DNA of 33,229 nucleotides from contig NW_003130854.1 in assembly GCF_000003605.2 (NCBI RefSeq), forward strand, positions 1,801,467 to 1,834,695, written 5' to 3'. The notes beneath the pieces are model-generated. The model saw only the letters and a program-made list of their open reading frames with translations, searched no databases and was not told where the DNA came from. The stretch comes from Saccoglossus kowalevskii. Taxonomy: Eukaryota; Hemichordata; Enteropneusta; Harrimaniidae. Shown here piece by piece: positions 3,212-26,826 of this stretch; positions within the stretch are counted from its first letter, which is position 1, and every line of letters begins with the position of its first letter. A program made the translations under genes and the position numbers.

Positions 3212-3910
3212 GATTTATACAGAATCAAATCAGTCGCATGTTGTGTGTGGTTTCGGTGAGTGAGACAATCGCTATAAATAGATAAATTCTCACCCTGCCA
3301 ATCTTGCCCCCGCGGGGCACTCACATAGGAAAGCTATTCGTGATGTGATTGTTTCTTCTCCAAATATTCCCTAGACATGGGACCACTTTTAATTTATTTT
3401 TGAGTTTCTCCTTGATATCTCGTTTCAAGGTTTACAAATGAGACTTATATTGTGTGTACTTAGTATGTCAATACGACTCCCCCCGTCGCTATATGAATCT
3501 GATACAACATAAACTGTAAATGCTTTGTCATAATGCAGCGATGGTTAATGCATTCATACACCTCTGACATTCTTGTTTTATACACCTATATAACATGACG
3601 GTTTGATTCAAAATAATGAATGTTGATGGTTAATGAGATAACAATGTGGAACCTTTTTATTTGTGCCAATATCTGAAATTCTTATTGAAAGTTCACAAAT
3701 ATTATAGTTCCATTTTGACTTCAAAATGTACATCAGGTGTCATAAAGACATATTATTACATTGAATCATGACATCTTCGACAATATCATGACGCCACAGG
3801 GGGTCAGGTACGATTCCTCATAATACGACCACGATATACACCAAGAGTTCACATACATAAACAAAATAAACAAACGAAAACATATTTCAAATTACATGTT
3901 TAGAAATGTA

Positions 3911-3916
3911 TTTAAT
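3911..3916 (-). terminator. Candidate polyadenylation signal of the HSPA12-like pseudogene
   Basis: The minus strand reads ATTAAA about 215 bases beyond the old stop codon. The same hexamer in the same local context (AAATACATTTCTAAAC follows the hexamer core) is kept near 22494 behind the intact copy. Inferred from sequence only. Confidence 0.3.
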
Positions 3917-4131
3917 TCCCTGTATTATTTACATGATCACCACTCATAACACGTGGTCTTAAAATTATAATTAACTGTAAGTCAGAATGGTATTCAACGT
4001 CTCCAGTTATTGATCATACTATAAATTCTATACTCAAAATAATTATATCCAAATAAAACAATAACACTTCTCAAAAAGTATTTTAGAAATCACCAAGAGT
4101 AAATATGTCGTTTAGACTGGAGTTATACACA

Positions 4132-5192
4132 TTAGCGGGCTTCCAGCTCCAAATGTGTCATAGTCACTTCGCCAGACACTGTATCAATAGCAGTAGCCCT
4201 TATCTCTGTGTCAGCAAACTCTATTTTTAGATCTATGTCACGGTTTTTACCCATGCTTACATGAGGTGACTCAACAACAATTTTAGTTTCCCCTTTTCTC
4301 ACATGGTCATCATCAATATAAAGAGCATCATTTGTCTCCGTTACATAGAATAGAAATTCAAAATTCGACTCGGAATGGTCGCCATGAATTGGCTGGAATG
4401 TATACTTAATGGTTTTACCAAACCAGATCTTTTTGTTCACTTTGAACAATTAGTGAATTAGACCCTCAGCATATGGATCGCCATCGCCATCTTCGGTTTT
4501 GAAAGTACGATCCGGGTCGTGTGTACTGGGATCAATTATATACAGAGCAAATTTCACAGCCATATGTTAATTTTAAACATATTATTTGAATTCAATACGT
4601 ATTTTGACGGAGTAAGAAAGCTCCCTTAACTACTGCCAAATTAGCATCCCGTGGAACCAGTATTTGATATTTCGAAAATAGTTTATTAATTTCTGCTTGC
4701 AAAAGAAGCGACTCTGAGAATCCGCCAACTAGGAAAATACATTTCACTTCCTCCAATTCTTTTTTTTTTTTGATAGTAATTCACCCATCAATTTAAGAAT
4801 TCCATCAATTGCGGGCTTAAACAATGTTTTCATTATTTCTGAATTTAGGACAAGATATTCTTTATTTATTTTCACCTTACCCTCAGGATAACATTTCTCG
4901 ATTGATTTCGCCATTAATGTTTTGAGTTGTTTTGTATGAAATTCAGTGAATGTATAAGGCAGGCGGAATCTTGAGTCGTTACCTTTGCTTATTCTATCAA
5001 GAGTCTTTTTCATTTCAAATTCCATAATAATTCGCAACCAGTCTGGCGGATATTCTTTCTTGTAATCAAGAATGAATTTGTCCCCGAAAATCTGTTTTAA
5101 TAGCTTTCCAAATTCTTTGTCGACATGTGCTCCTCCGAATGGGCCTACTATGGCTTTATGAATCTCCACTAGCTTTTTGTCCACTGTTTCTT
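4132..5192 (-). pseudogene. HSPA12-like: Pseudogene exon 4 (several frameshifts and stops)
   Basis: Homologous to the last exon of the intact gene. The CAG acceptor is kept, but GGTVD has become EETVD and the nine codons after VD are deleted, apparently between two GAC repeats. The poly-T expansion then shifts the frame at GELLSKK, followed by a TGA, a 4-bp insertion, a 6-bp GGCGAT duplication and a TAA. The last 105 residues are open from 4449 to the original stop at 4132. Confidence 0.9.
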
Positions 5193-5563
5193 CTGTTGAA
5201 AGTGATATAAATTAGATAGTTATTACATTTATTGCATGTTACCAAAATACTATCAATCTATCAATTTCTACCTAGTATTTCTATTAGAATAACTAGTAAC
5301 TGAAATACACGAAGTGCAAAATGTTGTATTCACCATGATGAATTAGGTTATAACGTAGGTAAAGATACAAACTTGTGCTTCCTTTATCATTATTTGTCAT
5401 TCATCCCATATTCATTATTATTTAGGATTTGACCACAACTTCAGTCGACTTTTATTCTAGTGACAAACACTTGTAAGCAAATTATATCATGATAACGTAT
5501 TAGCATAGTCAATTAGACTATCTACAATGCGGACACGTGTACACAACGAATTATATTACTCAC

Positions 5564-5743
5564 CACCACAATCCACTATCAGCACGAGGTCCCTGGCCTG
5601 GCGACAACATCTGAGCATTTAACACCATGTTCTTTACCATTTACAAACCCAGCCATGGGACTCTCTATACAGTGCAAGGACGCCGCTTCAGATTCCAGAG
5701 CAATGATCAATTGCTCATCGCAATCTCTAGATGCTACGTTGGC
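5564..5743 (-). pseudogene. HSPA12-like: Pseudogene exon 3 (1-bp deletion)
   Basis: 180 nt against 181 in the intact copy. It encodes the ANVASRD...LIIALE.EAAS block, then loses one base where the intact copy reads SYMIVDCGG; the frame shifts straight into TGA. The splice sites (CAG acceptor, GTGAGT donor) are preserved. Confidence 0.88.
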
Positions 5744-6193
5744 CTGAAATAATTTCATATGGATAATACAATACTAGTAATCGTTCCAGAGGGTGTGTTA
5801 AACTATAACTCGTTATTGCGATGTATTATCATACGCGAGTGCGTATGAGATACATATATGGAATTCAGTACATATGCGTCAATCAAAGAACATATGCGCC
5901 TTATTGGAGACTTTTGTTCAAATCAATCATTAATAATAATATTACGTTATATGAAACATTCGACTGAAACGGATTGAGAATATTTCTTGGTTGATTTTTC
6001 ATACCGACACATAACTCTGATTAGAGAGACTAGGTGGGTTATGTATATTATGCAAACATATCTTTGTTCAGTTTTAATATAAAACAGCCTCAACACAACT
6101 TGCCCCATTGTTTCTATGTTTTCAGGTAGTCTAATAATGTAATTTAGTAAAAATATTGCAATAGCCAATTTTGATTGAATGTGTGTTTTTTTT

Positions 6194-6361
6194 AAAGCGG
6201 CGGGGGGTGGGGGGTCGTCACCTACGCACGCGTGGGAATTGTGTCCTAAACGATGATAACAACACACGCTACGAACGCAAAGGCTCATGGGTTGACTTTT
6301 GTTCGTAAACAATGACATTTTATTGCCACCTGACGCATGCGCAGGTGACGACTCTCCCGCT
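6194..6361 (-). mobile_element. Small inverted-repeat element (MITE-like), copy 3
   Basis: Inverted relative to copies 1 and 2. It starts AAAGCGGCGGGGGG and ends GCGCAGGTGACGACTCTCCCGC, with the internal CGCAAAGGCTCATGG. It sits in the intron between pseudogene exons 2 and 3, but about 100 bp from the point where copy 4 sits in the paralogous intron, so the two are separate insertions. Confidence 0.85.
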
Positions 6362-6449
6362 ATAAGTAATGTGATAGTTGTTAAATAGAACGACTGAAAC
6401 AATTCCGTACAAAAGTGGCAAAAATAGTTTCCATTCAACTTTGTGTTAC

Positions 6450-6671
6450 CTGATATGCAGCTTCTCTCATGAATTGTTTGGATGCCTGACCCCAGATAGC
6501 AGGAACGGTGAGTACCCATTGGACTTCTTCATCTTTGAAATCCAAGCCGGTCGTTTCTGTAATCACTTTCAAAGCTTTCATTTTCAAGTAATGTATTGCG
6601 TGTGAAAACACTTCAACAGCTTTCATACTATGCCCATTTGCTGCAGTCAGTTCTACTTCAGTGTCGATAAC
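6450..6671 (-). pseudogene. HSPA12-like: Pseudogene exon 2 (frame still open)
   Basis: 222 nt with intact acceptor (CAG before GTTATCGACACT) and donor (CAG then GTAACA). It encodes the HSPA12 signature WVLTVPAIWGQASKQFMREA with few changes from the intact copy and no stop. Confidence 0.88.
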
Positions 6672-7094
6672 CTGAATATTAATAAAGAAGATATAGATAT
6701 TGCGTCAGATTGTGACACAGGTTCACAATAGGGTACACAACAAAAATAAAATCAGCATTCCAACCTTTCCGCATGCAGATTTTGTATAATGCAAATGAGA
6801 TAAAGGAGTTGTTAATCTGTGTTTGTTTAGATCATAGCTGTATTTGAACTTGACAAATCAAACTGTCTTGTTAAAAGTTGTTGACCGAAAGGAAAGAAAA
6901 GGGGCAGGGGCTTGGTGCAAATTAGTATAGAGCTAATCGTACCTAGAACTAAACAGCGTTAAGACTAGCCATGATTTAACGGGGTTTTAAGAGTGGCGTT
7001 CCTTACATTTGATCACCGGCCACTCTAATTTATACAAACGTAATTTATTTGACCTAGAAAGCCTAATATAATTTATTAATACTTAAATGCGTTA

Positions 7095-7595
7095 AGCCCC
7101 TTTCACAATTGGCGCCTCACTCGTGCGACAATTGTTTTTTTCGAAAATATTGTTTCCGTCCTGTTGTAGAAGTGTTGTCTTTGAGTCGCAAGCAATATAT
7201 AAAATCGTACGTATTTGGGGTGAAAGCTCAGGAGTTCTCGAGCTTATATTGGGAGTGAAAAAAAAATCGTACAACGTTGCAAAGGGGGCAAGACAGGTCT
7301 TCCAATAGTCTTAGGGTGGTACAGCGGACTCTTACGACAGGACGCATCATCGTACGACATGAAAATACTCGTGCAACACTCGTTCGGGGGTCTTACGAGT
7401 GTGTGCAAAGTCGCACAACACTCGTATTGCCTGTCGTGCAATTATTTTTCATCGCGTCAGTCGCTCAAAATATCGGAGCAGCACGTTTTTTTTTCCCGAC
7501 CGAGATGCGACAACGGCTACAACGAGTCGTACAACGGGAAAAATTTCGAGTCGCAAGCCATTGTAGTCTGTTTGGCACCAATTGTGAAAGGGGCT
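7095..7595. mobile_element. 501-bp terminal-inverted-repeat element in pseudogene intron 1
   Basis: The left end AGCCCCTTTCACAATTGG and the right end CCAATTGTGAAAGGGGCT are perfect inverted repeats, extending to 22 bp with one mismatch. The interior is rich in ACTCGT, TCGTAC and CGAC-type motifs on both strands, like subterminal transposase-binding clusters. Unit 2 has an uninterrupted site (CCTTAAATAG near 25727), and TTAA lies close to both ends here, hinting at a TTAA target. It is non-autonomous; the open frames inside look like chance. Confidence 0.85.
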
Positions 7596-8045
7596 ATTAA
7601 ATAGACGAATGCAACTCACTGATCACAATGTATAACCCTAAACGCCAAACATGTCCATATCAACTGGTATATTAGTGGAACTATATTTAGGTAAAGAGGC
7701 GAAAATTAATTGGGCCATAAACCATCATCAACTTCATACCAAAAAGTATGTCATATAACAGTACAGAAATATAAAGTATAATTTCCGAGTCCATCTTGCT
7801 TACTTGGACTGAGAAGAAAAATATTAGATAAAATAAATATATTTTAACTAGCCTAGGGCGCGCGATCTGTGGTCTATATATAATCCGTGAATTGTTGAAC
7901 GAGTAGACATCCCCGACTATCAAACCCATGCCCGTAAGTTATCATTCAAGCACATTCTGCCATAATGCAGGTAGGAATTATATGCATAGTAGTAAAGTGT
8001 TTTAAAAAAATGTCATTTCAATACATCAATGCATTTTGTGATTAC

Positions 8046-8378
8046 CTTGTCAAGTCCTTCTTTATACAATGCCATTTTGAACTTGTCAAAATAGTAGTGC
8101 TTTTTTTCTTCAACTGAGAGAGCGGAGTAGGTCATTTAAGCTTCATAACCAAATGCCATAAATTCGTTGTCCGAATTTAGTAAAACACAGGTCGGAGCCT
8201 TGGTAGTACTCACACCTACTTCACTGGTCCATGGTCTGCAGAAGTGAATATTTCTCACTGCGCCTTTATGTTCGTGGTTGAAGGCGAAGGCAAAGCCACT
8301 GTATGTCGTACCAAAATTGATTGAGACAACGGCGAGATATCTCTGCTCCTTGAGTGTTAACGCTGACATCGACGCCAT
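8046..8378 (-). pseudogene. HSPA12-like: Pseudogene exon 1 (start codon, phosphate-1 region)
   Basis: Starts with the same MASMSALTLKEQ as the intact copy and keeps the GT donor after GACAAG. The ATPase motif reads INFGTTYSG, where the family has DFGTT(Y/S)SG. A TAA replaces the Lys codon after FGYEA at 8136-8138. Exon length equals that of the intact copy, so the damage here is by substitution only. Confidence 0.9.
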
Positions 8379-9106
8379 TTTGTCCAGATAAAATGACGTA
8401 ACTGGAAACGGAAATAATTATAATCATTAAATTGAATTGGTTCGTTGTAGATTTAAGTTGCTCCAAAAGTAAAAATTATATAATCAGAAGTTTAATATTT
8501 TACGTAATTACTTAATTATTATTTTATAGCACAATACATATTTTAGTGTGCGCTGCGTGTCAGAGCGGTGTCAATCGAATCAGCTAATTTATATCTTATT
8601 AGAAAATGAAAATTCCGAATATCGCCATAAGGATCTATTTCTAAGATGGCGGGTGCATTAAACAATTAAACAAGGTAAATACCAAAAAATACCGCTCGCT
8701 ACAGTGTATTTCTTTCGTATTTCACCACACACAATGTAATGCAATAATACCTTCGGGATACTAGAGAATTCGTTGTGCAATCTGCCTTGACATTTCAAAG
8801 GTGGCCAGCTTCGTACAAGACTAGAAACACCGAGAAGAGTCAGTTTGCATTGTTGACCAATTATTTACTCAATTATTGTAAGCAATTTAATTTGTTTCAG
8901 CCATATATGAGGCATAACAGTTTAGTCATCGCTATTTAATGCTTGTTCTCATGAACATAATTACAGTGTTTTCTTTTGCAAAAGATACCGTGAATGTGAT
9001 TGCCTTACCTTGTTCTATTCGTAATAATTTCGCTAAGGAAAGAATTAGTATGCTCGTTCAAACACGGTGATCCATTCGAGCTTCACGCGTGGGCGTTTTG
9101 GTATGA
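8379..9106. promoter_or_regulatory. Shared divergent promoter region, unit 1
   Basis: Lies between the HSPA12-like start (minus) and the first exon of the coiled-coil gene (plus). An AG acceptor just upstream of the ATG (CCGTTTCCAG before TTACGTC on minus) implies a spliced 5' leader for the chaperone gene. The ATF/CREB-like octamer TTACGTCA is kept in both units. A YY1-like AAGATGGCGGG sits at 8643-8653, with a relative in unit 2. Blocks such as TGCTCGTTCAAACACGGTGA (about 9051) also match unit 2. Transcription start sites cannot be placed. Confidence 0.5.
8643..8653. promoter_or_regulatory. YY1-like motif in the divergent promoter (unit 1)
   Basis: AAGATGGCGGG matches the known YY1 core AANATGGCGGC closely. 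The paralogous interval of unit 2 has CAATATGGCGGAC at 27040-27052. Conservation of this core in otherwise diverged sequence supports a role in initiation, but no experiment is at hand. Confidence 0.4.
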
Positions 9107-9277: not shown

Positions 9278-12200
9278 GTAAGTGTAATTTTTTTCTTGAT
9301 TGTAGCGTAGCTGAAGCAAAATTTTAAACATCTGTTATTTTGAAAGGTTCATTATTTGAATTCATGGATAGAAGACAAATTCATTGTCACCAAACCATTT
9401 TTCGGACGATTTTAAACAGAAGTTTAATAGTAATTTAATAGTGTCTCACTCTTGCACTAAGACTTTATAAATTTCGTTTCTTAATTCAAGTATATGTTCA
9501 AAGACGCGTGAACGTCCGTGGTTAACAAAATGCTTTTCACAACCAAACATATATATTGACACTAGAGGGCAACACGCATAATATGTTGAACACGACATGT
9601 GTAATGTGTCATACACTGCTATTCGTTTACTTATTTTTGTTTCATTTTCAGGAAATAACTTCATTAAAATGTAAGTAGACGCTAGCTTTATATAATTCTA
9701 TTTATACTTATAACTTTTATATGCCTGCATTTTATTACTATTCCATCGTTTGTATTATACACAAATGTTCACTGTATTATTGAACAGCAGCACACTAACC
9801 TGATTGTATATAGTAAGTAGTTATTGCAACAACACAAAACTAAACAAAACAAAATATTCATTTCTTTTTACTGAATACAGGGCTTTGAAAAGTAGTAAGT
9901 CCGAAACAAATATTTGCAAAATATTGGACGATTCACGGGATTCTATTTTGAACATTCACCGACGTGAGACAGAGAAGTTGAACAAAGTGATTATCAAGAA
10001 GAACAAAACAATAAAAGAACTTGAATCGAAGTGAGTGTGTCCCTATTTTCAACTTAATATAGTTTTTCTTATTACTTTTTTTAAAAAGCTTGCACGTTTC
10101 CATTATTTCACATTCCAGTTCTCTGTCCCATTATCTTAATCCGTGATTTATTTAAATCAGCATATGCTGTGGACCTATTCTTATTGTTTTAATGGCGTTA
10201 CAGCCGTGTTGGATTGCGTCGTGTTCGAAATCTCAAATGTACTTATACAGGTACATAAGTACAGACATAACACTTGATTTGTAAGCTGGTACGAAATGTT
10301 TTGTTCTCTCAACTGATCTCTCACAGACTTACTCAAGCAAAGAAATCCACAACGCCAAAACTAGAATCGGAAAGAATTAATAAAAACTATGAAGCTGAGT
10401 ATGTATTTCTATTCTGTTCTGTCAAGTTATTAATGAATGATTACAGTGAGCAATTGTATATCAAGTAATGTACTTTGGATTCCTCGTTGGGAACATTCTA
10501 TAATGATTAGGCTTACTTGTATTTCAGATTAAAGAAGTATAAACAGGAAATACAGCACAAAGACGAGGTTATTAACAACTTGCAAGAACAAGTTCAAGGA
10601 TATGAAAGACAGTAAATACCAAATCTATTGCTAATTTGTGAACATTGAAAACTTCTAGTATATTTCATACGAATCAGATTAATAAGACATGTTTAAATAG
10701 TTTATCTATGTTGTCGGGCCCGTATTGTTTCTGATCATCACGCGAGTAACATGCAGTATCAATATTATTCATCCAAAATGTTGTTGACACTTGTATGATT
10801 TGTTTAGAATAATAAAATTGGAGAAGAACGCAGAAAGACAATCGGAAGATTACAAATCAATTCAAAAGTTAAAGGATGAGTGAGTTATTTTCTTGTTCCC
10901 AAAACGTCAACTTTTTCGTATTTGTCCTTCTGATCTCATAGTTTATAGACATTTCAGAATATGCTATTAATATACTATTACTATTTCAGTGATGGTAATT
11001 CTGTTTTAAATGTTGAACTCCAAGGTCATATATAAGTTGTATTCAATCCTATTGAAAATTTAATGATATGTTCATTTGTTTTAATACCCAGAAATACGGC
11101 GCTGTTACAGAAGAAAAATGTCATTATAGAACAGATTCAACGTGAAATCAATGATCATAAATACCAGTAAGTAATCAGTACAGTACATATATAGAGGCAA
11201 ATATCTGCCTCATGTAGTTTAAACGTGTGTACATAAATCTAGAAAGCCCGTATTTTAAACGTTGTGAAATTGATTGTGTTTAACAACGTTTTATCTATTA
11301 TATCAGATTAAATGTATACAAGATGAATGAAACCAAAAATAGAGAAAAGATTCATTCGCAAACTGAGGATATTAAAAGATTGGAGATCAGGTATTTTCAA
11401 TATATAATTTTTAATATATAAAATATAATATATAATTTATAAACACATATCTATAGATGTGGTATGCCTGTAATGAACAGAAGATGTGATACCTTTGAAA
11501 TCACAACTTGCCAATCTTGAATTATTACGTCAATTGCATATATGAATAAAGCAATATCTGTCTGCTTCTAGGTGCTCACAAATGAAAAATGATTTACAGG
11601 AAAATAATAAAACCGTGGAATATTACAAGAAATGGTAGATCTGTTTTAAGTTGACTGATATATTGATACACTATGTTTTCCCCTTTTCGATGTAAATATA
11701 TTTCATTATGAAAAACAGGTTTACAGTGGTATTGTAAAAGAAACAAATTAGGTCATGAGGTCATGTAGTCTGTTATAAGTATGCTTGAACGATATTTATT
11801 CAACATATTGGCTATGACAATTCAGTACGGTAAGTGTTACGCGTTACAGGTGTTAGCGACACTGAATTGGACAGCTATATATTTACATTTCGTTCATAAG
11901 GTGAATGTGGCTATTCGATTTGTTGAATTATTAGGGACGCCGTAAAAAATCGATGTCGGATAAAAAACTTATTTGTTTTAGTTTGGGGTTGTGGTGGGGT
12001 GACCTCAAAAAGTTTCCATCCTACAAAAACGATTTTATTTTTAAATGAAGTAAAAAAAAACTTGGAGTATTTGTAGTTCGTTTTTTTTTCTATCCAATCA
12101 TGGTCAAAAATATAAGAAAATGAAAAAAAAAACATCCAAGATGTGAAAATGGATTGGTCCGAGTGTAAATATGTGCGTCAAATGAGGTCAATTACAGGAC

Positions 12201-15200
12201 ATGAACCTAGAACCAACTGGTTTGCCATACTACTGTCCGATTATCAATTTGTATTGAATGTAGTCTGACGCCATGATCAATATTTATCAATTAAGTTTCA
12301 GTGGGGTGGGGAGGGTTTGGGAAAAAAAACTAAAGGAATTAAGTTTGTTATCCTACATTGAACTTTTGATGTTGTCCCTTAATAAGTTGAATGTCAATCA
12401 GTATACGCGTCAAAAATAGGATATTGTAGACAATAGAGAAGACAGTAGTTTTATATTATAATGAACTGACCGATCAGATGGTTTTACCATATTACATGTG
12501 TTGCTATTACTCGAAATACACATAATATCTGTTGTCTATTTCGATCAGTTTGCAGGAAGATAAAATAATGGTTAAGGATCACCAAGATGAAGTCGATGCG
12601 AGAAATCAAATAATAAATTTAATAAAATCATTAAATCATTGTATTATATCATATCATTATTTTTTGGGTATTACAACATTTATTCTATTCATTAAATTGT
12701 TTTTTATTTGTGTATTTGTTCTGTTTTTTTCATATAGTGTTGACGAGTATCAAACAGACATTGTGAGATACAAAGATGAAATGGCTAAGAAAGACACAGT
12801 GATTCGGGACACGCAATTCGGGTATGTTTGGATTGGCAGAAAGTTATAGTTACAGTAATATCGTATTTTATGTGCCACAATAAGAATTAGATAATGAATA
12901 TGCATGGTTTCAACAAAAAACAAATCACGTCTGTGAATTACCCCAGAGCATATATTTACCAAGTTTCATTGAAATGTGATAATTATGCATCATACGTAAT
13001 AACAAATGTAATTACTATAATAGAGTTTTAATTAACATTATCCCCACGCACTTATTAAAGTACAATATTTTCAAATATATGTACATATATGTGCTAATTT
13101 ATATTGGAATGGGTTGATTAGCTCTTGAGATATCGATGGAAAAAACAAAAATTTTGTTATTATGCAAATTAGATATTTTTCCGAAATTGTAATGTCAATT
13201 GCGGGTGTCATTTTGGGAAAAAATACACATCCAATGTGGTGTATTGATAATGGATTATACACCCGACACAAATAATATATGTACATTATACTCTACTTGG
13301 CTATATTTCAATAAACCAGAGTACGTATTCAGAAGCCTCGAGTAACGTTAATTTATACCGCCCAGTAATACTATCGTATTTGGTTCCACATAATTGTATA
13401 CAGTAATATAAGAAATGTTGTACAAGTTCATCAAAACGATTGAACACTATCAATTGATTCGTCACCGTGGATTTAAACTGGGAAAGATATACACAATTGA
13501 TTTGCTCTCAATTTTTGGAAAAATCTCGGGCATATGAAACACAAATCTGAAATATGAAAACCGAGTAATCGTAGACTCTAAAAAAATGTAAAATTATATA
13601 ATAGTTATGCCCAAATATCTGTAAGTGGGACAACAAATAGCCTACAGTATTCCTTAAAGAACCAAATAAATTCAAATGTTATTTAAATATATAACATATT
13701 GATGGTTCCCTCATTTTTTTTATTATTTGCTAGAATATCAGAGAATGAAAAGACTATACAAATTGCAAATGACGAAATAAAAAAACTCAACTTGAATATT
13801 GAAGAGCACAAGAAAAGGTTCGTATAAATGTATAGATATAATAAATCACTGATTTTGTTCTATGCATGGTGTAAACGACAGAAATTTAAATAGGATATAT
13901 TTATTATACTTCAATTAATTAGAATTTATTCTGTTTTTCATATAGTGTTGATGAATATAAATCAGACATTGTGAGATACAAAGATGAAATGGCTAAGAAA
14001 GACACAATGATTCAGAACACTCAACTCAGGTATGTTTGGATTTTCAGAAATGTATAGTTACAGTAATTTGGATTGAATATTTAGTTTACTTGCATTCATT
14101 ATTTGTATCTTGTAACTTGTAGTCTGCAGCCTGATTTATGTTATGTGGCACAAGTTCAATTAAAATCTGATTTTAGATTTCAAAATATGAATTAGATAAT
14201 GAATATGCATGGCGTCAACACAAAACTAATCACGTCTTTGAATTACCCCAGAACATATATTTACCAAGTTTTAATTAAAAACTCATCAGGCCATTAGCAT
14301 TGTCCCTACGCACTTATAGAAATACAATATTTTTTTTCAAATATATGTACATATATGTGCTGATTTCCATTGGAATGTGGTGATTAGTTCTTGAGATATC
14401 GATGGGAAACAGCAATTTAAATATTTTGCAAATAAGATATTCTTCCGAAATTGTAATTTCAATTGGGGTATCATTTTGGGAAAAAATACAAATCCACTAT
14501 GGTGTATTGATAATGGCTTATACACCTGACTCAAATAATATATTATACTCCACTTGGATGATGGTGTCTAATATTGAAATAATATTTCAATAAACAAGAG
14601 TACGTGATAATTAGCTTCGAGTAACGTTAAGTTTTACCGCCCAGTAATATTATCGTATTTCCTTACTATTTGGTTACACATAACTCTTTACGGTAACATA
14701 TAAAATGTTACACAAGTTTATCAAAACAATTTAACACTATCAATTGATTCGTCATCATGTATTTGAACTAAAAAGATATACACAATTGATTTGCTTTTAC
14801 TTCTGAAAAGATTCCGGGCATATGAAACACAAATCAGAAATATGAAAACCGAGTGATCGTAGAGTCTAAAAAAAACGTAAAATGATATAATAGTTACGCC
14901 TGTAAGTGGGACAACAAAGAGCCTACAGTATTCATTAGAGAACCAAATAAATTCAAATGTTATTTAAATATATAAAATATTGATGGTTTCCTCAAATGTG
15001 TTTAAATATCTGCTAGAATATCAGAGAATGAAGAGACTATACAAAATGCAAATGACGAAATAACAAAACTCAACTTGAATATTGAACAGCACAAGAAAAG
15101 GTTCGTACAAATTTATAGATATATTAAATCAATGATTTTGTTCTATGCATGGTGTAAACGACAGAAATTTAAATAGGATATATTTATTATACTTCAATTA

Positions 15201-18200
15201 ATTAGAATTTATTCTGTTTTTCATATAGTGTTGATGAATATAAATCAGACATTGTGAGATACAAAGATGAAATGGCTAAGAAAGACACAATGATTCGGGA
15301 CACCCAACTAAGGTATGTTTGGATTTTCAGAAATGTATAGTTACAGTAATTTGGATTGAATACTTAGTTAACTTGCATTCATTATTTGTATCTTGTAACT
15401 TGTAGTCTGCAGCCTTATTTATGTTACGTGGCACAAGTTCAATTAAAATCTGATTTTAGATTTCAAAATACGAATTAGATAATGAATATGCATGGTGTCA
15501 ACACAAAATTAATCACGTCTTTGAATTACTCCAGAACATATATTTACCAAGTTTTAATTAAAAAATCATCAGGCCCTTAGCATTGTTCCTATGCACTTAT
15601 TGAAATACAATTTTTTTTCAAATATATGTACATATATGTGCTGATTTCCATTGGAATGTGGTGATTAGTTCTTGAGATATCGATGGGAAACAGCAATTTA
15701 AATATTTTGCAAATAAGATATTCTTCCGAAATTGTAATTTCAATTGGGGTATCATTTTGGGAAAAATACAAATTCACTATGGTGTATTGATAATGGCTTA
15801 TACACCCGACTCAAATAATATATTGTACTCCACTTGGATGATGGTGTCTAATTTTGAAACAATATTCAATAAACAAGAGTACGTGATAAATAGCTTCGAG
15901 TAACGTTAATTTATACCGCCCAGTAATATTATCGTATTTCCTTACTATTTGGTTACACATAACTCTATACGGTAACATATAAAATCTTGTACAAGTTTAT
16001 CAAAACAATTGAACACTATCAATTGATTCGTCATCGTGTATTTGAACTGGGAAAGATATGCATAATTGATTTGCTCTCATTTTTAACAGATCCCGGGCAT
16101 ATGAAATACAAATAAGAAATATGAAAATTGGGTGATAGTAGACTCTAAACAAACGCAAAATGATATAATAGTTATGCCTATATATCTGTAAGTGGGACAA
16201 CAAATAGCCTACAGTATTCCTCAAAGAACCAAATAAATCCAAATGTTCTTTAAATATATGAAATATTGATGGTTTCCTCAAATTTGTTTAAATATCTGCT
16301 AGAATATCAGAGAATGAAAAGACTATACAAATTGCAAATGACGAAATAACAAAACTCAACTTGAATATTGAAGAGCACAAGAAAAGGTTCGTATAAATGT
16401 ATAGATATGATAAATCACTGATTTTGTTCTATGCATGGTGTAAACGACAGAAATTTAAATAGGATATATTTATTATACTTCAATTAATTAGAATTTATTC
16501 TGTTTTTCATATAGTGTTGATGAATATAAATCAGACATTGTGAGATACAAAGATGAAATGGCTAAGAAAGACTCAATGATTCGGGACACCCAACTAAGGT
16601 ATGTTTGGATTAGGGGAAAGTTATAGTTACAGTAATTTGGATTGAATATTTAGTCCACTTGCATTCATTATTTGTATCATAACTTGTACTATGCCGTCTG
16701 ATTTATGTTATGTGCCACAAGCTCAATTCAATTAATTACTTTTATAAAGTTTTAATAGAAACTCACAAGGTTGTTAGCATTTTCCCCATGCACTAATTGA
16801 AATACAATATTTTTGTTTTCAAATATATGTACATGTATCGATGGAAAAGAAAAAAAATAAACTATTATGCAAATAAGATATTCTTCCAAAATTGTAATTT
16901 AAATTTTGGGTATAATTTGGGGAAAAATAGAAATCCACTATGGTGTATTGATAATGTCTTATACACCCGACACAGATAATATATATATATTATACTCTAC
17001 TTGGCTGATGGTGTATAATTTTGGAACTCTATTTCAAGACTGACTGAAGCTGCAAAGAAGAATCTTGCTGTAGGCCACCAAAGGATTGAGAATACTGAAT
17101 TCACAGTTCGGCCTTCGACTTTGACTGATAATTACATCAGATTCATAGATGGTGAACGTATGGATGCAGTGGAACGTTTGCAGAAAATGACAACAATAAA
17201 TGAATTAACGTGTGAACGTATAGCTTGCAAAGTAATGCAAGTGAGTTTTCAATATTTAATGCCGCGTTCCCATTGAAACACAAATCGTTATCCGACTGTA
17301 GCTGTGCATTCATATTCCTCGCCTGCGTATGTGTATACGTATTTTTAATAATTTTGGAGTTGTAAATGTATGAGCAGCGAAAAACGCCATTATTTGATCT
17401 TTGGTAGCCTATAAATATGCTCTGAATGCAACTACTCAATATTTTATTTCTTCGTGAAATGCAACAACAGTAGTTAAAACATAATTAGTTAAGTAGTATA
17501 CAACTGAAATGTTTATCTCATAAAGAATGGTTATTTGAAGTAAATATTTCTACTAGAATATTGTTTTATCGCCACACATAATATTGGCTACGAAATGTTA
17601 TTTCTCGCAATATTCGTATTGGTAAATCATCTGTATTACGTTAACAACTTATATATATTTCCATGTTTTTAGCTTGCTTACATCATATCAAACAGTATGT
17701 GTACCGAATTCAAAAAGAATGCAAAAGCTATACTTTCCCAACCAGTTAAATGTGCTGCAATCATGACAGATATACAAGGTAATGACGACACAGTAAGCTA
17801 TGATGTGATGTTAAATACCGTATTGAAACGTACATCCCATAACTGCGATATATCACCGATTATAAAGGTACGATATTAAAGCACAATTCTGTCAAAGACT
17901 TCGACTAGATGTGTGTACACTGTCTGGGCGTTATTTTTATGAGTGATGTGATGTATCATGCTGCCATGTTCTCACAAGCTAGATGTGTTTCGTGTCTTGT
18001 CTGTATTGTTATTTGTGTACGTTACTTTACTATTAAAATAGTACATCGCTTATAAATCGTTAAACATGCCATTCTACTCATGTGTACTAATACATAAGTA
18101 TATTTTTCAGGGTATTATACGTGACATGGAAAAACGTTTTAAAGGCGGAAACTTAGCCGATTGGGAAGTCGTGGAAGAGGCACTCAGTGAGTTCATAGAC

Positions 18201-18443
18201 TCGTGCGCCCGACTTGCCTGGGGTTTGGTTGTTCAAACACCGCCACTTACTTTGGAATTTAACGATAAACCTGTATATAACCCAAACCAACATCAGCTAT
18301 CTGGCATCAAGAGTGAATCCATTAAACCCGATACAGTCCTCGTATACATATGGCCAGTACTCAGAGAACAGGACAACGGTAGAGTTGTGTGTAAGGGTAT
18401 TTTGACAAAGGTGTGTGACCTTATTGTAATGATCATTGTGTAG
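9107..18443 (+). CDS. SPATA18-like: Coiled-coil protein with MIEAP/SPATA18-like C-terminal domain (unit 1)
   Basis: Multi-exon gene assembled from splice sites and frame: 9107?-9277, 9652-9670, 9881-10030, 10327-10398, 10528-10611, 10808-10879, 11092-11166, 11307-11390, 11572-11634, 12549-12632 (or through to 12821), 12738-12821, 13734-13817, 13946-14029, 15017-15100, 15229-15312, 16303-16386, 16515-16598, 17039-17240, 17673-17867, then 18111-18443 or 18111-18410 plus 18621-18710. The first in-frame ATG is split between exons 2 and 3. About 667-702 residues from it if the last exon reads through to 18443: a long Lys/Glu-rich coiled coil, then roughly 240 residues resembling the MIEAP C-terminus. 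In vertebrates that protein takes part in mitochondrial quality control; the canonical MIEAP N-terminus is not seen here. One frame lesion near 12625-12640 (see findings) leaves its integrity uncertain. Confidence 0.75.
9652..9670 (+). CDS. SPATA18-like: 19-nt microexon ending in AT of a split start codon
   Basis: TTTTCAG acceptor, 19 bases, then GTAAGT. It ends AAAAT and the next exon begins with G, giving ATG across the junction. The unit 2 counterpart is 26 nt (27947-27972) and also ends in AT before a following G. Conservation of the split ATG with changed exon length supports it as the initiator. Confidence 0.6.
9881..10030 (+). CDS. SPATA18-like: First coding exon of the coiled-coil rod
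   Basis: 150 nt between TACAG and GTGAGT. It completes the ATG and encodes MALKSSKSETNICK followed by a helical stretch with NIHRRETEKLNK and ending KTIKELES. The unit 2 exon 29106-29249 aligns, sharing DSI, IHRRE, KLN and IKELE. It ends in phase 2, setting the phase for the exons that follow. Confidence 0.8.
10327..11634 (+). CDS. SPATA18-like: Six rod exons, all phase 2
   Basis: Exons 10327-10398 (72 nt), 10528-10611 (84), 10808-10879 (72), 11092-11166 (75), 11307-11390 (84) and 11572-11634 (63). Each has AG/GT borders, a length divisible by three and phase-2 ends. Products are Lys/Glu/Gln-rich helices, for example LKKYKQEIQHKDEVINNLQ. Exons 10528 and 11307 both open with ATTAAA and are both 84 nt, and 10808 and 11092 resemble each other at their starts, suggesting older exon duplications. 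Confidence 0.8.
12549..12821 (+). CDS. SPATA18-like: Exon pair fused in frame across an intron with a damaged donor
   Basis: The first 84 nt (12549-12632) fit the 28-residue module with heptad a-positions L, V, V and I. An exact 8-bp duplication AAATCATT/AAATCATT then precedes GTATTATATC, displacing the donor so that splicing to 12738 shifts the frame into a TGA. If 12641-12737 is retained, the whole 273 nt stays open and adds a hydrophobic segment (SYHYFLGITTFILFIKLFF and onward). The second part, 12738-12821, is the first Q-type module. Confidence 0.55.
12738..17038 (+). repeat. Tandem array of about 1.28-kb units, each carrying a Q+P exon pair
   Basis: Q exons at 12738, 13946, 15229 and 16515; P exons at 13734, 15017 and 16303; all 84 nt. 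Spacing between Q exons is 1208, 1283 and 1286 bp. The P-to-Q introns are all 128 bp (13818-13945, 15101-15228, 16387-16514) and nearly identical. The long Q-to-P introns are also nearly identical between the second and third units, more diverged in the first, and only a shortened relic follows the last Q exon. This is recent unequal duplication of an exon pair with its introns. Confidence 0.92.
13734..16598 (+). CDS. SPATA18-like: Repeated 28-residue coiled-coil modules (P1-Q1-P2-Q2-P3-Q3)
   Basis: P modules read RISENEKTIQIANDEI...KLNLNIEEHKK and Q modules read SVDEYKSDIVRYKDEM...KKDTMI with small differences between copies. Each is 28 residues, four heptads. Over a Q+P pair the a-positions are V, I, M, I, I, I, I, I and the d-positions Y, Y, K, T, N, A, L, H, and the register passes every exon junction without a skip. 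A long two-stranded rod or filament-like segment is the natural reading; partner and location are not visible. Confidence 0.85.
17039..17240 (+). CDS. SPATA18-like: Linker and start of the MIEAP-like C-terminal region
   Basis: 202 nt from TTTCAAG to GTGAGT. It enters in phase 2 and leaves in phase 0, ending the run of phase-2 modules. It encodes LTEAAKKNLAVGHQR, a segment with PSTLTDNYIRFIDGERMDAV, and CERIACKVMQ at the end. The N-terminal part continues the helix; the rest is globular in composition. Confidence 0.75.
17673..17867 (+). CDS. SPATA18-like: MIEAP-like domain, middle exon
   Basis: 195 nt, phase 0 at both ends, acceptor TTTTTAG and donor GTACGA. It encodes LAYIISNSMCTEFKKNAKAI and a C-terminal stretch ending CDISPIIK. 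Its position and helical character match the segment of MIEAP just before the conserved C-terminal block. By itself it would not identify the family. Confidence 0.7.
18111..18443 (+). CDS. SPATA18-like: MIEAP-like domain, conserved C-terminal exon
   Basis: Encodes EFIDSCARLAWGLVVQTPPL, then YNPNQH, then VLVYIWPVLRE and RVVCKGILTK. These correspond to the vertebrate MIEAP order FIxxxCxxA-PPL-F(N/D)-(V/L)xYxWPAL-xKGxA, recalled from the family rather than searched. The frame can read on to TAG at 18441-18443, adding nine hydrophobic residues. Alternatively it splices at AAG/GTGTGT (18410) to 18621-18710, adding LLDQALNNLVNF and a tail. Which end is used is undecided. Confidence 0.78.
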   Translation, partial: GIIRDMEKRFKGGNLADWEVVEEALSEFIDSCARLAWGLVVQTPPLTLEFNDKPVYNPNQHQLSGIKSESIKPDTVLVYIWPVLREQDNGRVVCKGILTKVCDLIVMIIV

Positions 18444-19235: not shown

Positions 19236-19330
19236 ACACTACACTACACTACACTACACTACACTACACTACACTACACTATACTACACTACACTACACT
19301 ACACTACACTACACTACACTACACTACACT
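19236..19330. repeat. (ACACT)n microsatellite
   Basis: Nineteen pentamers with one variant (ATACT at 19281). Confidence 0.97.
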
Positions 19331-19705: not shown

Positions 19706-19710
19706 TATAG

Positions 19711-19804
19711 AATAGAATAGAATAGAATAGAATAGAATAGAATAGAATACAATAGAATAGAATAGAATAGAATTAGAATTAGAATTAGAATAGAATAGAA
19801 TAGA
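19711..19804. repeat. (AATAG)n microsatellite with AATTAG variants
   Basis: Mostly AATAG pentamers, with a run of AATTAG hexamers near 19771-19788 and one AATAC at 19746-19750. It lies within 200 bp of the junction between the two duplication units. Confidence 0.96.
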
Positions 19805-21017: not shown

Positions 21018-22490
21018 CTACACCACTAATGTGCGTGACTGTATTTCTTTAAATGATTCTGTCCAATACGCGGAAGCACACGGGTGCATCATTTTGACTA
21101 CTGTATCATAAAAGCGTACTGCCGCTTGGCAACATGAAAATATAAGGGTGCCTAGACATCGTAACGTACCCATATCGTGTTCGCGAGAATAAAATATTAT
21201 GACCGCCTTGGGGTAATCAATTGTATTAACATATATGTGGTATTAAATCAGTAGTGGTGGCAATTATGTATATTTTTTCTATGTACTGAATATAAAAAGG
21301 CCGTGGGTCGGGTAAAGAGTTCATTTTGGGTACCTACAGTGTAGATGTTATCTGCCAAACGAGATTACGCCCACGCACACAACGCTCAATTACGTGTGAG
21401 TATCATACACATCCTAGTTAAGCACTACGGACGAATGGCAATTATGGGAAACACCGCGAGAATTATTATCGCAAATAAATTGGGCTCCGTGATTTAAACT
21501 CTTGATTGAATTGGGAAAACTGGTGGTTATTCGCATTTGCCTCATGAGAGTTTGTTTAGAATTAGTATTCACAAAGCAAAGTATTCACAAGAGATTAAGA
21601 TCGGAATAAAATAATTCAGCTGAGATAATTATTAAATGCACCTAGCAATTTTTGTTTTATCCAAATATCTCGTCACTGCTCAATCAACATCCAGATACAA
21701 ATCAATCGGAAAGTCCGCCACGTGTAACTGTAGATTGATGTATATTTACAGTGTCACTGTTTCTGTGAAGGTTCGACTTACCCGATACTCATCATTTCTG
21801 CGAATGTATGTGTCATTTTGAGGTTTGTGAAAAGAGGTCACGTTATACAGACTCAAGTATGTCATAGGTTGTGTGTGGTTTCGGTGAGTGAGACAATCGC
21901 TATAAACATACATATTCTCACCCCCCCCCCAATTTTGTTCCCGCGAGGCACTCGCATAAAGAAGCTTTTCGTGACGCGATGCCTCAATGGATTGTTTATT
22001 TCCCAAATATTCCCTGGACACGGGACCACTTTCAATTTAAAGTTTCTCCTCGATAACTCGTCTCAGGGTGTACAAATTATTATATTGTGTCTACTTAGTT
22101 TGTCAATATTCCTGTTTTATGTTCTTATATAACATGACGTTTTGATTAAAATAATGAATGTTGATGATTAGTGAGATAATAACGTGGTACCTTTTAATGT
22201 GTGTCAATATCTGAAATATATTCTTATTGAGAGTTCACAAATAATATTGTCTATGTTTTGTCTTGAAAATGCACGTCTGTTGTCCTAAAAACTATTAATT
22301 TATTGAATCATGGCATTTTGACAGTATTGTAACGCCACGGGGGGGGGGGGGTCTGGTGCCATTCAGCATATGATCAATGACCTCGCGATTTGTCTAGTAC
22401 ACATACATCAAGAAATAACATTTCTCATATATAATAAAATAAAACGAAATAAACAAACAAAAACATATTTGAAATTACATGTTTAGAAAT
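21018..22490. other. Noncoding duplicated 3' flank of the intact HSPA12-like gene
   Basis: Aligns piecewise with unit 1 (about 1300-1410, 1936-2240, 2785-3050, 3212-3910). It includes homopolymers at about 21921-21931 (C) and 22339-22351 (G). No gene is supported. Confidence 0.55.
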
Positions 22491-22493
22491 GTA

Positions 22494-22499
22494 TTTAAT
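22494..22499 (-). terminator. Candidate polyadenylation signal of the intact HSPA12-like gene
   Basis: ATTAAA on the minus strand about 290 bases beyond the stop, in a context conserved with 3911-3916 of unit 1. Confidence 0.35.
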
Positions 22500-22788
22500 T
22501 TAATTAATGATTAACAATTTAACAATATACAATGTAGTTATTTGAAAAAAATCGTAACATAAGCGTTGCATACAGTTTCACGGGAGCCCCACTCATAAAA
22601 AATAAACTTAAAATTATAACTAACTGTGAGTCGAAATATTATTCAACGTGGTCAATTACTGATCTTATTATATATTCTAAACCCAAAAATATTTTTTCTC
22701 AATAAAACAAACAATAACACTTCTCAGGAAGTATTTTAGAAATCACCAAGAGTAAATATGTCTGTCTTTTAGACTGGAGTTATACACA

Positions 22789-23855
22789 TTAGCGGGCTTC
22801 CAGCTCCAAATGCGTCATAGTCACTTCGCCAGACACTGTATCAATAGCAGTAGCCCTTATCTCTGTGTCAGCAAACTCTATTTTTAGATCTATGTCACGG
22901 TTTTTACCCATGCTTACATGAGGTGACTTAACAACAATTTTAGTTTCCTCTTTTCTCACATGGTCATCATCAATATACAGAGCATCATCTTTCTCCGTTA
23001 CATAGAATAGAAATTCAAATTCCGACTGGTCGCCATGAATTGGCTGGAATGTATACTTAATGGTTTTACCAAGCCAGATCTTTTCGTTTACTTTGACCAA
23101 TCTGTGAAAGAGACCCTCGGCATACAGATCGCCATCTTCGGTTTTGAAAGTGCGATCAGGGTCGTGTTTGCTGGGATCAAATACAGAGCAAATTTCACAA
23201 CCATATGTTAATTTTGAAATTCTCATTTGAATTCTATGCGGATTTTGGCCAAATAAAATAGCTCCCTTAACTACTGCCAAATTAGCATCCCGTGGAACCA
23301 GTATTTTATATTTCGAAAATTGTTTATTAATTTCTGCTTGCAAAAGAAGCGACTCCGAGAATCCGCCAACTAGGAAAATACATTTCACTTCCTCCAACTC
23401 TTTTTTTGATAGTAATTCACCCATCAATTTAACAATTCCACCAATTGCTGGCTTAAACAATGTTTTCATGATTTCTGAATTTAGGACTAGATATTCTTTA
23501 TTTATTTTTACCTTACCCTCGGGATAACATTTCTCGATTGATTTCGCCATTGATGTTTTGAGTTGTTTTGTATGAAATTCGGTGAATGTATAAGGCAGGC
23601 GGATTCTTGAGTCGTTACCTTTGCTTATTCTATCAAGAGTCTTTTTCATTTCAAATTCCATAATAATTCGCAACCAGTCTGGCGGATATTCGTTCTTGTA
23701 ATCGAGAATGAATTTTTCCCCGAAAATCTTTTTTAATAACTTTTCAAATTCTTCGTCAACCTGCGCTCCTCCGAATGGGCCTCCTGTTGCTTTATGAATC
23801 TCCATCAGTTTTTTGTCACTCGTTATGCGATGCATGGTTATGTCCACTGTTCCTC
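22789..23855 (-). CDS. HSPA12-like: HSPA12-like exon 4 with stop
   Basis: Completes GGTVDIT, then GPFGGAQVDEEFEKLL, WLRIIMEFEMKK, and the nucleotide-site LVGGFSESLLLQ with VPRDANLAVVKGAILFGQ. The C-terminal part covers the HSPA12-type beta-rich tail and ends THLELEAR with TAA at 22789-22791. The 352-codon open stretch contains no lesion. Confidence 0.93.
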
Positions 23856-26826
23856 CTGTTAAAAGTGATATAAAATAGATAGTTATTGCATGTTACTAAC
23901 ATACTATCAATCTATCAATTTCTACCTAGAATTTCTATTAGAATAACTAGTAACTGAAATACACGAAGTGCAAAATGTTGTATTGACCATAGGGGATGAA
24001 TTAGGTTATAACGTAGGTGAAGATACAAACTTGTGCTTCCTTTATCATTATTTGTCATTCATTCCATATTCATTATTATTTAGGATTTGACCACAACTTC
24101 AGTCGACTTTTATTCTAGTGACAAACACTTGTAACCAAATTAAAGCATGATAACGTATTAGCATAGTCAATTAGACTATCTACAATGCGGACACGTGTAC
24201 ACAACGAATTATATTACTCACCACCACAATCCACTATCATGTACGAGGTTCCTGGCCTGGCGACAACATCTGAGCATTTAACACCATGTTCTTTACCATT
24301 TACAAATCCAGCCATGGGACTCTCTATACAGTGCAAGGACGCCGCTTCAGGTTCCAAAGCAATGATCAACTGCTTATCGTGATCTCTAGATGCTACGTTA
24401 GCCTGAAATTATTCCATATGGATAATACAATATTAGTTAGTTGAATTACAATATTGTATGATAAAAACACGCTCTTGTGATTAATTAATTAACACACGCT
24501 AGTGAAGGTGTGTTACGTATAAGTAATTCAATACGCATGCGTCATCTACATTATTGCCACTTGTAATACTAAAACATCACTCAAGAAACAATTTGTTTGT
24601 TTGTTTTTTTTCAATTAATAATGAATAAAACATGCCACCACATAACTCTGGTTAAATAGGTATATTATGCAAATTAGCAAACATATATCTGTTAAGTTTA
24701 AATTTAAAGCGGAAGGGTCGTCATCTGCGCACGCGCGGGCATTGAGTCCCAAGCGACGATAACGACACACGCTAAAAACACAAAGGCTCATGGGTAGACG
24801 CTTGTTTGTAAACAATGACACGCTATGGCCATCTGATGCATGCGCGGGTGACGACTCCCCCGTTTTAAAACAACCTTGACACAACTTGCCCCTCTGTTTC
24901 GATATTGTCAGATAGTCTAATATATAGGTGACCACATAAACTTCTGCGGCCTCATTTTTTTAAAAGGTGGTTAAAATATCATCTTATTGCTAAATACGAA
25001 ATACTACGAGTGAGACGACACTGTAAAAAATCATTATTGGCAAAAATATTTTCCATTCAACATTGTGTTACCTGATAAGCAGCTTCTCTCATGAATTGTT
25101 TGGATGCTTGACCCCAGATAGCAGGAACGGTGAGTACCCATTGGACTTCTTCACCTTTGAACTCCACGCCGGTCGTTTCTGTAATCACTTTCAAAGCCTC
25201 CATTTTCAAGTAATGAATTGCGTGTGAAAACACTTTCACAGCTTTCATACTATGCCCGTTTGCTGCAGTCAGTTCTACTTCAGTGTCGATAACCTGAATA
25301 TCAATAAAGAAGATATAGGCATCGCGTCAGATTGTGACACAGGTTCACAATAGGGTACACAACAAAAATAAAATAAGCATTCCAACATTTCGCCATGCAG
25401 ATTTTGTATAATGCAAATGAGATAAAGGAGATGTTAATCTGTGTTTGTTTAGATCGTAGCTGTCTTTTGATTTTGATAAATCAAACTCATTGAAATCTAA
25501 CTGTCATGGTAAATGTTGGGGCAGGGGCATAGTGCAAATTAGTAGCGAGCTACTCCTACCAAAAGGACTCAAAAGCGTTGAACCTAGCCATGATTTCAAG
25601 GGGTTATCAGAGAGGCGTTATTTACATTCGGTCACCGACCACTTTACTTTATTCAAACAAGCCATGGGAATGCAATATTTATTTGATCTAGAGAGCCTAA
25701 TATAATTTATTATTACTTGAAAACCTTAAATAGACAAAGACGACTCACTGATCACCATGTATAACAGGATTTACTGTAGTGCGTCCTTTCCACATGTTCC
25801 CCTCTGTCAAACACTAAACGCCTCTCCCGTTAGTGAAATTGTACATATACACAGTTCATATAAACTGTTTATTTGGACTGAGAACACAAGTATTAGATGA
25901 AATAGGTATTTTAAGCTAGCCTAAGATGCGTGATCTGTGGTGTATAAAAGTTCTGTACATCGCTGAGCGAGCAGACAGCCCCGACTATCGAACCCACGCT
26001 CCCTTAGTTACCATTCAAGCATACTCTGGCATAAAGCAAAGATGGGAATCATATCCCGGGGGCACTTAATGCAAATCACATTATTGAGAAGTGCACGTGC
26101 CGCCTTTTGGGGTCGTAATTTATAGCTGCTTGGTCTAGAATTGGGTATAGATTTGCTTGCCTTTAGGTCCAATACCAGGTTTGCCTCTCTTGGATGGGCC
26201 AGGGAATGAAGCCTCTTTTTTTGAATTTATTTACCTGAGTTTTAGTACTTTTATTGATTGAATTTTATTGAACAATTTAGTTTTTAATGGGATATACAAA
26301 ATAACTGTTTGGTCTATAAGGGGGTATGGTTTTTGAGGTGAAAATGGTGTATGATGGGAACTGGGGTTATAATACCAAACACCCCTACGAAACTGAAAGG
26401 CCAGTGTGACCCCCCTCCCCGGAATCATATGCATGGGTAAAGTATTGAAAACAAATGCCATTTTAATAAATCAATGATACATTCTGTGATTACCTTGTCA
26501 AGTCCTTCTTTATACAATGCCATTTTGAACTTGTCAAAATAGTAGTGCGTTTTGTCTTCAACTGAGAGTTCGGAGTAGGTTTCTTTAGCTTCATAACCAA
26601 ATGCCACAAATTTTTTGTCCGAGTTTAGCAACACACAGGTCGGAGCCTTGAACGTACTCGCACCTACTTCACTGGTCCATGGTTTGCAAAGTTGAATATC
26701 TCTCACGGCGCCTTTGTATTCGTGGTTGAAGGCGAAGGCGAATCCACTGTATGTCGTACCAAAATCGATTGAGACCACGACGAGATATCTCTGTTCCTTG
26801 AGTGTCAACGCTGACATCGACGCCAT
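22789..26826 (-). CDS. HSPA12-like: HSPA12-like Hsp70-family ATPase, intact, 600 residues
   Basis: Four exons join without a break: 26826-26494 (333 nt), 25293-25072 (222), 24402-24222 (181) and 23855-22789 (1067), with GT/AG borders throughout. The start is the ATG at 26826, preceded by a leader acceptor (TTTTCAG before TTACGTC). The protein has an actin-like Hsp70 ATPase fold: phosphate-1 motif IDFGTTYSG at about 20-28, HSPA12 signature TVPAIW at 166-171 with KQFMREAAY at 176-184, phosphate-2 motif DCGGGTVD at 243-250, and adenosine-site motif LVGGFSES at 407-414. Human HSPA12A/B are about 675-690 residues, so this is somewhat short. HSPA12 members lack the usual Hsp70 substrate domain; the exact client here is unknown. 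It faces the coiled-coil gene head to head. Confidence 0.93.
24222..24402 (-). CDS. HSPA12-like: HSPA12-like exon 3
   Basis: Residues 186-245 plus the first base of Gly246: ANVASRDHDKQLIIALEPEA, a Cys/Gly-containing loop, then SYMIVDCG. GTGAGT donor in phase 1, so the glycine run of the phosphate-2 motif is interrupted by the intron. Confidence 0.92.
24706..24866 (-). mobile_element. Small inverted-repeat element (MITE-like), copy 4
   Basis: 161 bp. It starts AAAGCGGAAGGGTCGTCA and ends GGTGACGACTCCCCCGTTTT, with CGCAAAG-type and CTATGGCCATCTGATGCATG blocks. It lies in the intron between exons 3 and 2. The unit 1 site (about 6078, TTTTAATATAAAACAGCC) is empty. Confidence 0.87.
25072..25293 (-). 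CDS. HSPA12-like: HSPA12-like exon 2
   Basis: Residues 112-185, phase 0 at both ends: VIDTEVELTAANGHSMKAVK, a helix, then the HSPA12-specific WVLTVPAIWGQASKQFMREA. Acceptor CAG before GTTATC; donor CAG then GTAACA. Confidence 0.92.
26045..26430. mobile_element. 366-bp insertion with a perfect 10-bp target duplication
   Basis: GGAATCATAT occurs at 26045-26054 and again at 26421-26430, flanking 26055-26420. Unit 1 has a single GGAATTATAT near 7972. The insert starts CCCGGGGGCACT and ends GTGACCCCCCTCCCCGG, a poor inverted repeat. A 9-10 bp duplication is typical of Mutator-like elements, but no transposase is present, so that class is a suggestion. Confidence 0.85.
26494..26826 (-). CDS. HSPA12-like: HSPA12-like exon 1
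   Basis: Residues 1-111: MASMSALTLKEQ, the phosphate-1 motif DFGTTYSG (Asp21), KAPTCVLLNSD and FGYEAKETY, ending YKEGLDK at a GTAATC donor. Both active-site Thr residues are present, unlike the damaged motif in the unit 1 copy. An in-frame TTG 33 bases upstream falls inside the leader intron and is not the start. Confidence 0.92.

Follow-up and report, generated by a model that had tools for sequence, protein, structure and literature searches.

In the hemichordate Saccoglossus kowalevskii, a stretch of 33,229 nt (contig NW_003130854.1, positions 1,801,467 to 1,834,695 of the forward strand; hereafter the window) carries a gene with a predicted MIEAP domain, in which seven consecutive exons of 84 nt stand in tandem at positions 12738-16598. 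This arrangement, which a preliminary description of the DNA had pointed out, is confirmed. We think it probable that the gene encodes a MIEAP-domain protein with an N-terminal coiled-coil rod, that the rod is assembled from small exons in phase 2 at both ends (phase 2-2), and that a whole-heptad block of two exons, P and Q, was duplicated in tandem within it. Exons, introns and the spliced product are predictions from genomic DNA and stem from a single genome and a single assembly.

Anatomy of the exon array

The tandem array spans 12726..17038 on the plus strand (4313 nt, 3.36 units of ~1.28 kb) and consists of three repeats of a Q exon, a long intron, a P exon and a short intron, followed by a last Q exon and a truncated long intron. 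The exon order is hence Q-P-Q-P-Q-P-Q, that is, three copies of the P-Q block plus an extra Q, with Q0 at 12738..12821, P1 at 13734..13817, Q1 at 13946..14029, P2 at 15017..15100, Q2 at 15229..15312, P3 at 16303..16386 and Q3 at 16515..16598 (all plus strand). As the preliminary description held, all seven are 84 nt long and of phase 2-2: each is bounded by AG and GT, its first base finishes the prior codon, two bases remain at its end, and it encodes 28 residues. The translation of the Q exons resembles VDEYKSDIVRYKDEMAKKDTMIRDTQLR and that of the P exons resembles ISENEKTIQIANDEITKLNLNIEEHKKS.

The distances from one Q copy to the next (1208, 1283 and 1286 nt) agree with the duplicated unit of about 1.28 kb that had been claimed, whereas the claim of near-identical introns stands for one intron and not for the other. 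The short intron from P to Q measures 128 nt and its copies are 96-99% identical, but the copies of the long intron from Q to P (912, 987 and 990 nt) are 85-94% identical, the second matching the third at 94.4% and the first matching either at ~85%. Q3 is followed by a long intron in truncated form, which is 81-86% identical to the others and whose homology reaches the acceptor of M1, the first exon of the MIEAP domain, where the array ends. Exon copies could be aligned without gaps. The array is thus made of tandem similar exon blocks together with their introns, of the kind found in NEB and TTN, and its seven exons represent two types in several copies and not seven independent coincidences.

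Assemblies tend to fail at tandem repeats, and with one assembly examined the extra units could in principle have been made by misjoined or duplicated haplotypes. This explanation is hardly credible, since divergence among the copies of the long intron amounts to 5.6-14.6%, with 7-15 gap events in addition, which disfavors haplotype duplication in the assembly, and the window is free of N and lies within a contig of 3.16 Mb. Furthermore, a DNA search of the genome with the Q exon (four candidates scored) matched the four copies in the window only, so that a second haplotype copy was not detected, although the lack of a match does not prove rarity. A protein search of the genome with P-Q (nine candidates scored) returned the seven exons of the window and one match at E 0.6.

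Heptad register and the predicted rod

Heptad position a, which corresponds to exon positions 1, 8, 15 and 22, is hydrophobic at 28 of 28 sites over 196 residues (I 20, V 4, M 4), and in the assigned register the exon border falls between g and a. The register runs through the junctions without a break, as had been claimed for all 196 residues, and coiled-coil prediction on the spliced product, which had been proposed as a check, found no register break at the array junctions. In one non-redundant Q+P pair, hydrophobic periodicity yielded permutation p values of 0.002 at 7 residues and 0.039 at 3.5 residues. COILS-type scoring, for which an approximate matrix was used, placed the first residue at register a in 7/7 array exons when these were scored singly, with permutation p values of 0.009 (Q0), 0.004 (Q2) and 0.015 (P3) for the three exons tested. 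Scores obtained with this matrix range from 1.15 to 1.52 across the array, and in a sliding coil profile Q0 is poor and the remaining array exons are mostly high.

In the reading that we favor, all seven array exons would enter one message, each block would lengthen the helix by 56 residues or ~8 nm (a length that relies on the textbook rise per residue), and the rod would self-associate and space the MIEAP domains. Expansion may have been tolerated since symmetric whole-heptad exons would be structurally silent insertions, rather than favored by selection for a precise ruler. As had been proposed, the layout of the exons allows the rod to grow in steps of 56 residues with frame and register kept, and the junctions of the array are free of stop codons. 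More tentatively, the position of the introns at one heptad position might make rod length a variable of copy number or splicing, in which case individuals could differ in steps of ~8 nm, an animal, exon-based counterpart of the length-variable surface rods of bacteria; we regard this as possible, with the odds against it.

Origin of the copies

A 300-nt stretch that comprises the end of the long intron, the P exon, the short intron and the greater part of Q shows 96 and 98% identity to its reference copy, compared with 85-94% for entire long introns. When sites were counted at which a single full unit departs from the other two, unit 0 and unit 1 were the odd ones at a ratio of 57:4 in Q together with the first half of the long intron, of 35:21 in the second half of that intron and of 1:7 in P and the short intron, while unit 2 was odd at 7, 17 and 1 sites over the same three segments. 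The two unit ends, a contrast picked after the counts were known, differ with a Fisher p of 2.3e-6, and the longest exact tract shared between units is 157 nt. Unequal crossing-over or gene conversion would produce mosaic units of this sort, and the best reading of the sequence is that the copies arose, and were partly homogenized, by such events.

As to selection, 12/12 amino-acid changes among the copies avoid positions a and d, which account for ~29% of possible changes (p ~0.016; a alone, p 0.13). Between units 0 and 2, exons differ at 10/168 sites and the long intron at 124/849 (p 0.0017); the corresponding figures are 14/168 and 122/843 for units 0 and 1 (p 0.035), and 7/168 and 55/981 for units 1 and 2 (p 0.58). 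The exons hence vary less than the long intron in two of the three unit pairs. We take homogenization to account for much of the similarity of the copies, with selection no more than suggested.

A deeper origin, in which a single ancestral exon of 84 nt gave rise to both P and Q as sister copies, was considered and is unproven. The in-step similarity of P1 and Q1 beats full shuffles (p 0.005), and that of P3 and Q2 gives p 0.23 when heptad position is kept. The best match between Q2 and e1c, an 84-nt exon upstream of the array, is one heptad out of step (p 0.008), which means that the exon borders are not clearly homologous.

Points against the favored reading and its alternatives

Several observations weigh against a strong rod that is maintained by selection and spliced in full. 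Heptad position d is held by Y 8, K 4, T 4, N 3, A 3, L 3 and H 3 (28 sites), with I/L/V/M/F in just 3/28, and a d position that is mostly polar makes the predicted coil strength moderate; the coil score of Q0, at 1.15, is low. The predicted rod is plausible, but not a strong canonical coil. Among the copies, replacement changes predominate, with 4 codons replaced and 0 with silent changes only in P, and 8 replaced and 3 with silent changes only in Q, an excess which implies that the array is under weak or recent purifying selection. Moreover, the short intron is conserved like the exons, so that exon similarity may reflect homogenization and not constraint. Finally, with splice-site strength scored by a generic matrix, the acceptors of P2 and P3 are weak (1.3), whereas a frame-breaking acceptor 8 nt inside the exon scores 2.4, and P exons might therefore be skipped or mis-spliced.

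A functional length ruler under selection, its copy number tuned to measure a distance, for example between membranes or between condensate partners, would be in keeping with modules of whole heptads, with gap-free exon copies and with changes that spare a and d, and coiled-coil rulers exist elsewhere, as described in part of a review (PMC5082667). We judge such a ruler improbable, however, as the predominance of replacement changes among the copies speaks against it, the case is based on one genome, and for this protein a partner, a distance or conservation of length is not known.

The weak acceptors of P2 and P3 would also suit alternative cassettes, in which messages contain differing subsets of P and Q and give rise to rods in steps of 28 residues or to exclusive isoforms, an arrangement compatible with the duplication history. 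Every exon is of phase 2-2, so any subset preserves frame and register, and the seven array exons can be joined in any order without a stop codon at the junction. Stops occur in only 4/105 forward junctions, all of them TGA and all from e1g, the exon before the array, to an exon that starts with A (P1, P2, P3 or M1). Since e1g ends in TG, TGA is formed with any such exon; an exon starting with T must therefore come after e1g, and skipping of the whole array from e1g is ruled out. We nevertheless think cassettes unlikely, because site strength comes from a generic matrix and the sequence compels the exclusion of no exon.

Upstream of Q0 lies a candidate decayed exon, P0 (12549..12640, plus strand), which is open and coil-like. 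Its nearest GT is 92 nt from the acceptor, where the frame is lost, and is weak (score -2.8), and a tandem AAATCATT repeat (8-base) at 12625-12640 directly precedes this sole nearby GT; P0 is probably not used. The frame is open at 12526-12849, through P0, the 97 nt beyond it and Q0, and its strongly hydrophobic middle is probably a T-rich intron tail. A single unspliced exon of 273 nt at 12549-12821 is likewise open and was scored as a candidate, but the stretch before Q0 resembles a T-rich intron tail and this exon was rejected.

The gene around the array

Seven further exons of phase 2-2 are predicted upstream of the array on the plus strand, namely e1a (9881..10030, 150 nt), in which the coiled-coil region begins, e1b (10327..10398, 72 nt, 24 residues), e1c (10528..10611, 84 nt, 28 residues), e1d (10808..10879, 72 nt, 24 residues), e1e (11092..11166, 75 nt, 25 residues), e1f (11307..11390, 84 nt, 28 residues) and e1g (11572..11634, 63 nt). 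The 14 introns predicted between e1a and M1 are without exception in phase 2; if duplicated introns are counted once, 10 remain. Exons of 84 nt are thus also present upstream of the array (e1c and e1f), but e1b, e1d and e1e do not encode whole heptads, and the rule of four heptads per exon covers nine exons (the seven of the array, e1c and e1f) and not the whole rod. That every coil exon starts at register a was rejected as well, as the preferred register is e for both e1b and the coil exon of the paralogue on C3787, and d for e1g. Register a is preferred by e1c, e1d, e1e, e1f and the candidate P0 when each is scored alone; the lead over shuffles is clear for e1c (0/2000) and not for the others, e1f included, which have p values of 0.05-0.49; the register row of e1a comprises its last 28 residues, picked to end at the border, and has no evidential value.

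At the 5' end, a possible exon of 19 nt (9652..9670, plus strand) is suggested by splice sites and frame compatibility only; its last two bases and the first base of e1a would form an ATG (MALKSSKSETN...), and alternatively it could extend a frame that opens with an ATG at 9232. Downstream of the array, the end of the coil and the start of the MIEAP domain are encoded by M1 (17039..17240, 202 nt, phase 2-0), which has a weak acceptor (score 1.0), and the domain continues in M2 (17673..17867, 195 nt, phase 0-0) and M3 (18111..18443), which ends at the stop codon at 18441-18443 or is spliced at a GT at 18411 (all plus strand).

The assignment to the MIEAP-domain proteins, as made in the preliminary description, is upheld by the match of the spliced model to the PF16026 profile (E 3.4e-24, 86.3 bits against a cut-off of 27, covering profile positions 1-193 of 195). 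Ten further Pfam matches of the model all lie below their own cut-offs, several of them to coil-rich models, and a sequence search of a structure database with the MIEAP part gave just two matches at E ~0.6. A chainer based on splice sites and codons returned all 15 exons from e1a to M1 with exact borders, which is a consistency check only because it was trained partly on the codons of these exons; beyond these exons, its output has an additional one of 51 nt at 9038 and shorter versions of M2 and M3. In a looser exon listing, the acceptors of P2 and P3 lie 8 nt further in, which breaks the frame, and e1c and e1e are shortened.

The gene model also bears on the idea that the gene is decaying or non-functional and the array neutral debris in a pseudogene, for which the lack of a usable in-frame donor in P0 and the near-neutral look of the replacement changes among the copies could be cited. 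The exons from e1a to M3 are open, however, with AG/GT sites and phases that agree, and the MIEAP match lies far above its cut-off, which makes a pseudogene very improbable.

Comparison with known systems

The PEVK region of titin is a spring and not a coiled coil, and the repeats of nebulin bind actin and are not built of heptads. At the level of exons, the two resemble the array more closely. According to the parts of the sources that we consulted, the titin gene (TTN) contains a PEVK block of nine exons in three copies, the first two exons being present a fourth time, with gains and losses in healthy people and a ruler hypothesis under discussion (PMC9142044). Three copies and a partial fourth one resemble the three Q-P repeats plus Q described here, but the partial copy of titin is set apart from the third by four exons, and the titin duplication has been linked in part to LINE-1, a further difference from this array (PMC6469411). 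In nebulin (NEB), the triplicate region is a 10-kb block of eight exons in three copies, the number of which varies, and, as a point of difference, deviation by at least 2 copies is reported as pathogenic, as far as the part consulted goes (PMC9109913).

Coiled-coil cassettes that vary in number are known from bacteria. The Vaa adhesin of Mycoplasma hominis has been described, in the part of the report consulted, as carrying exchangeable cassettes of ~110 residues that contain a coiled-coil motif and whose number varies from 1 to 5 among isolates (PMC524362), and the size of streptococcal M protein varies through recombination between intragenic repeats, according to the title of a reference in PMC9704523. 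Both differ from the array in that they are bacterial surface proteins with documented length variation and no exon structure. We regard the exon-block arrays of titin and nebulin, which the present array looks like, and the bacterial cassettes as close precedents. What appears less usual is that a single animal gene brings together exons of whole heptads, a uniform intron phase along its rod and an array of mosaic units.

Within the MIEAP/SPATA18 family (PF16026), the arrangement of a coiled coil N-terminal to the MIEAP domain is shared. Human Mieap (MIEAP/SPATA18), as described in part of one report, has two coiled-coil domains within residues 92-311, forms condensates and has a reported function in mitochondrial quality control and in condensates (PMC10845071), whereas e1b to Q3 here encode 346 predicted coil residues, 196 of which come from the tandem array. 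Mieap families are expanded in bivalves, as reported in part of one paper (PMC8382680). A search of open-licence papers by titles and abstract openings did not find a description of this array, which is weak evidence of absence.

Coiled coils mostly keep their length: according to part of a review, coiled-coil regions show on average 3.6 times less length variation than other regions (PMC5082667). With its whole-heptad exons and shared intron phase, the array shows how a rod could change its length without the usual penalty, and it would supply a natural series for asking whether rod length matters in a MIEAP protein. Should the number of units prove polymorphic, the array would offer a clean case, in an animal, of rod length inherited in quantized steps.

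Other MIEAP loci and genomic neighborhood

A search of the genome with PF16026 (eight candidates scored) gave 7 exon matches on five contigs. At C3787, a paralogue has a coil exon of 135 nt and phase 2-2 before the MIEAP domain; the phase-2 entry is common to both genes, but this exon differs from those of 84 nt in size and in register. A repeat scan of the stretches fetched from the other four MIEAP loci, with thin exon calling, found no exon-block array; upstream of the MIEAP domain, C3787 and C260 offer only ~1.3-1.6 kb before the contig ends. The scan found no repeats at C2975 and C3227, and short-period, satellite-like repeats at C3787 and C260 (22/45-nt and 29-nt spacing), with two 2-copy families at C260. 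A satellite-like repeat of 29-nt spacing at L029:8455-9907 adjoins the MIEAP locus of C260.

In the window, two related genes on the minus strand flank the MIEAP gene at 3500-8700 and 22000-27200. We take them to encode proteins of the HSP70 family (HSPA12-type); in a Pfam search with four pieces of these genes, the only match was one to an ATPase, below threshold. The three largest matching DNA pieces of the pair, 463 to 1872 nt long, share 87.7-90.2% identity. In the left copy the frame is split around a run of 12 T (4760-4771); at this place the right copy has a single frame of 367 amino acids. Downstream of the MIEAP gene, two tandem repeats of 5 bases are found, (ACACT)19 at 19236-19330 and (ATAGA)19 at 19707-19804.

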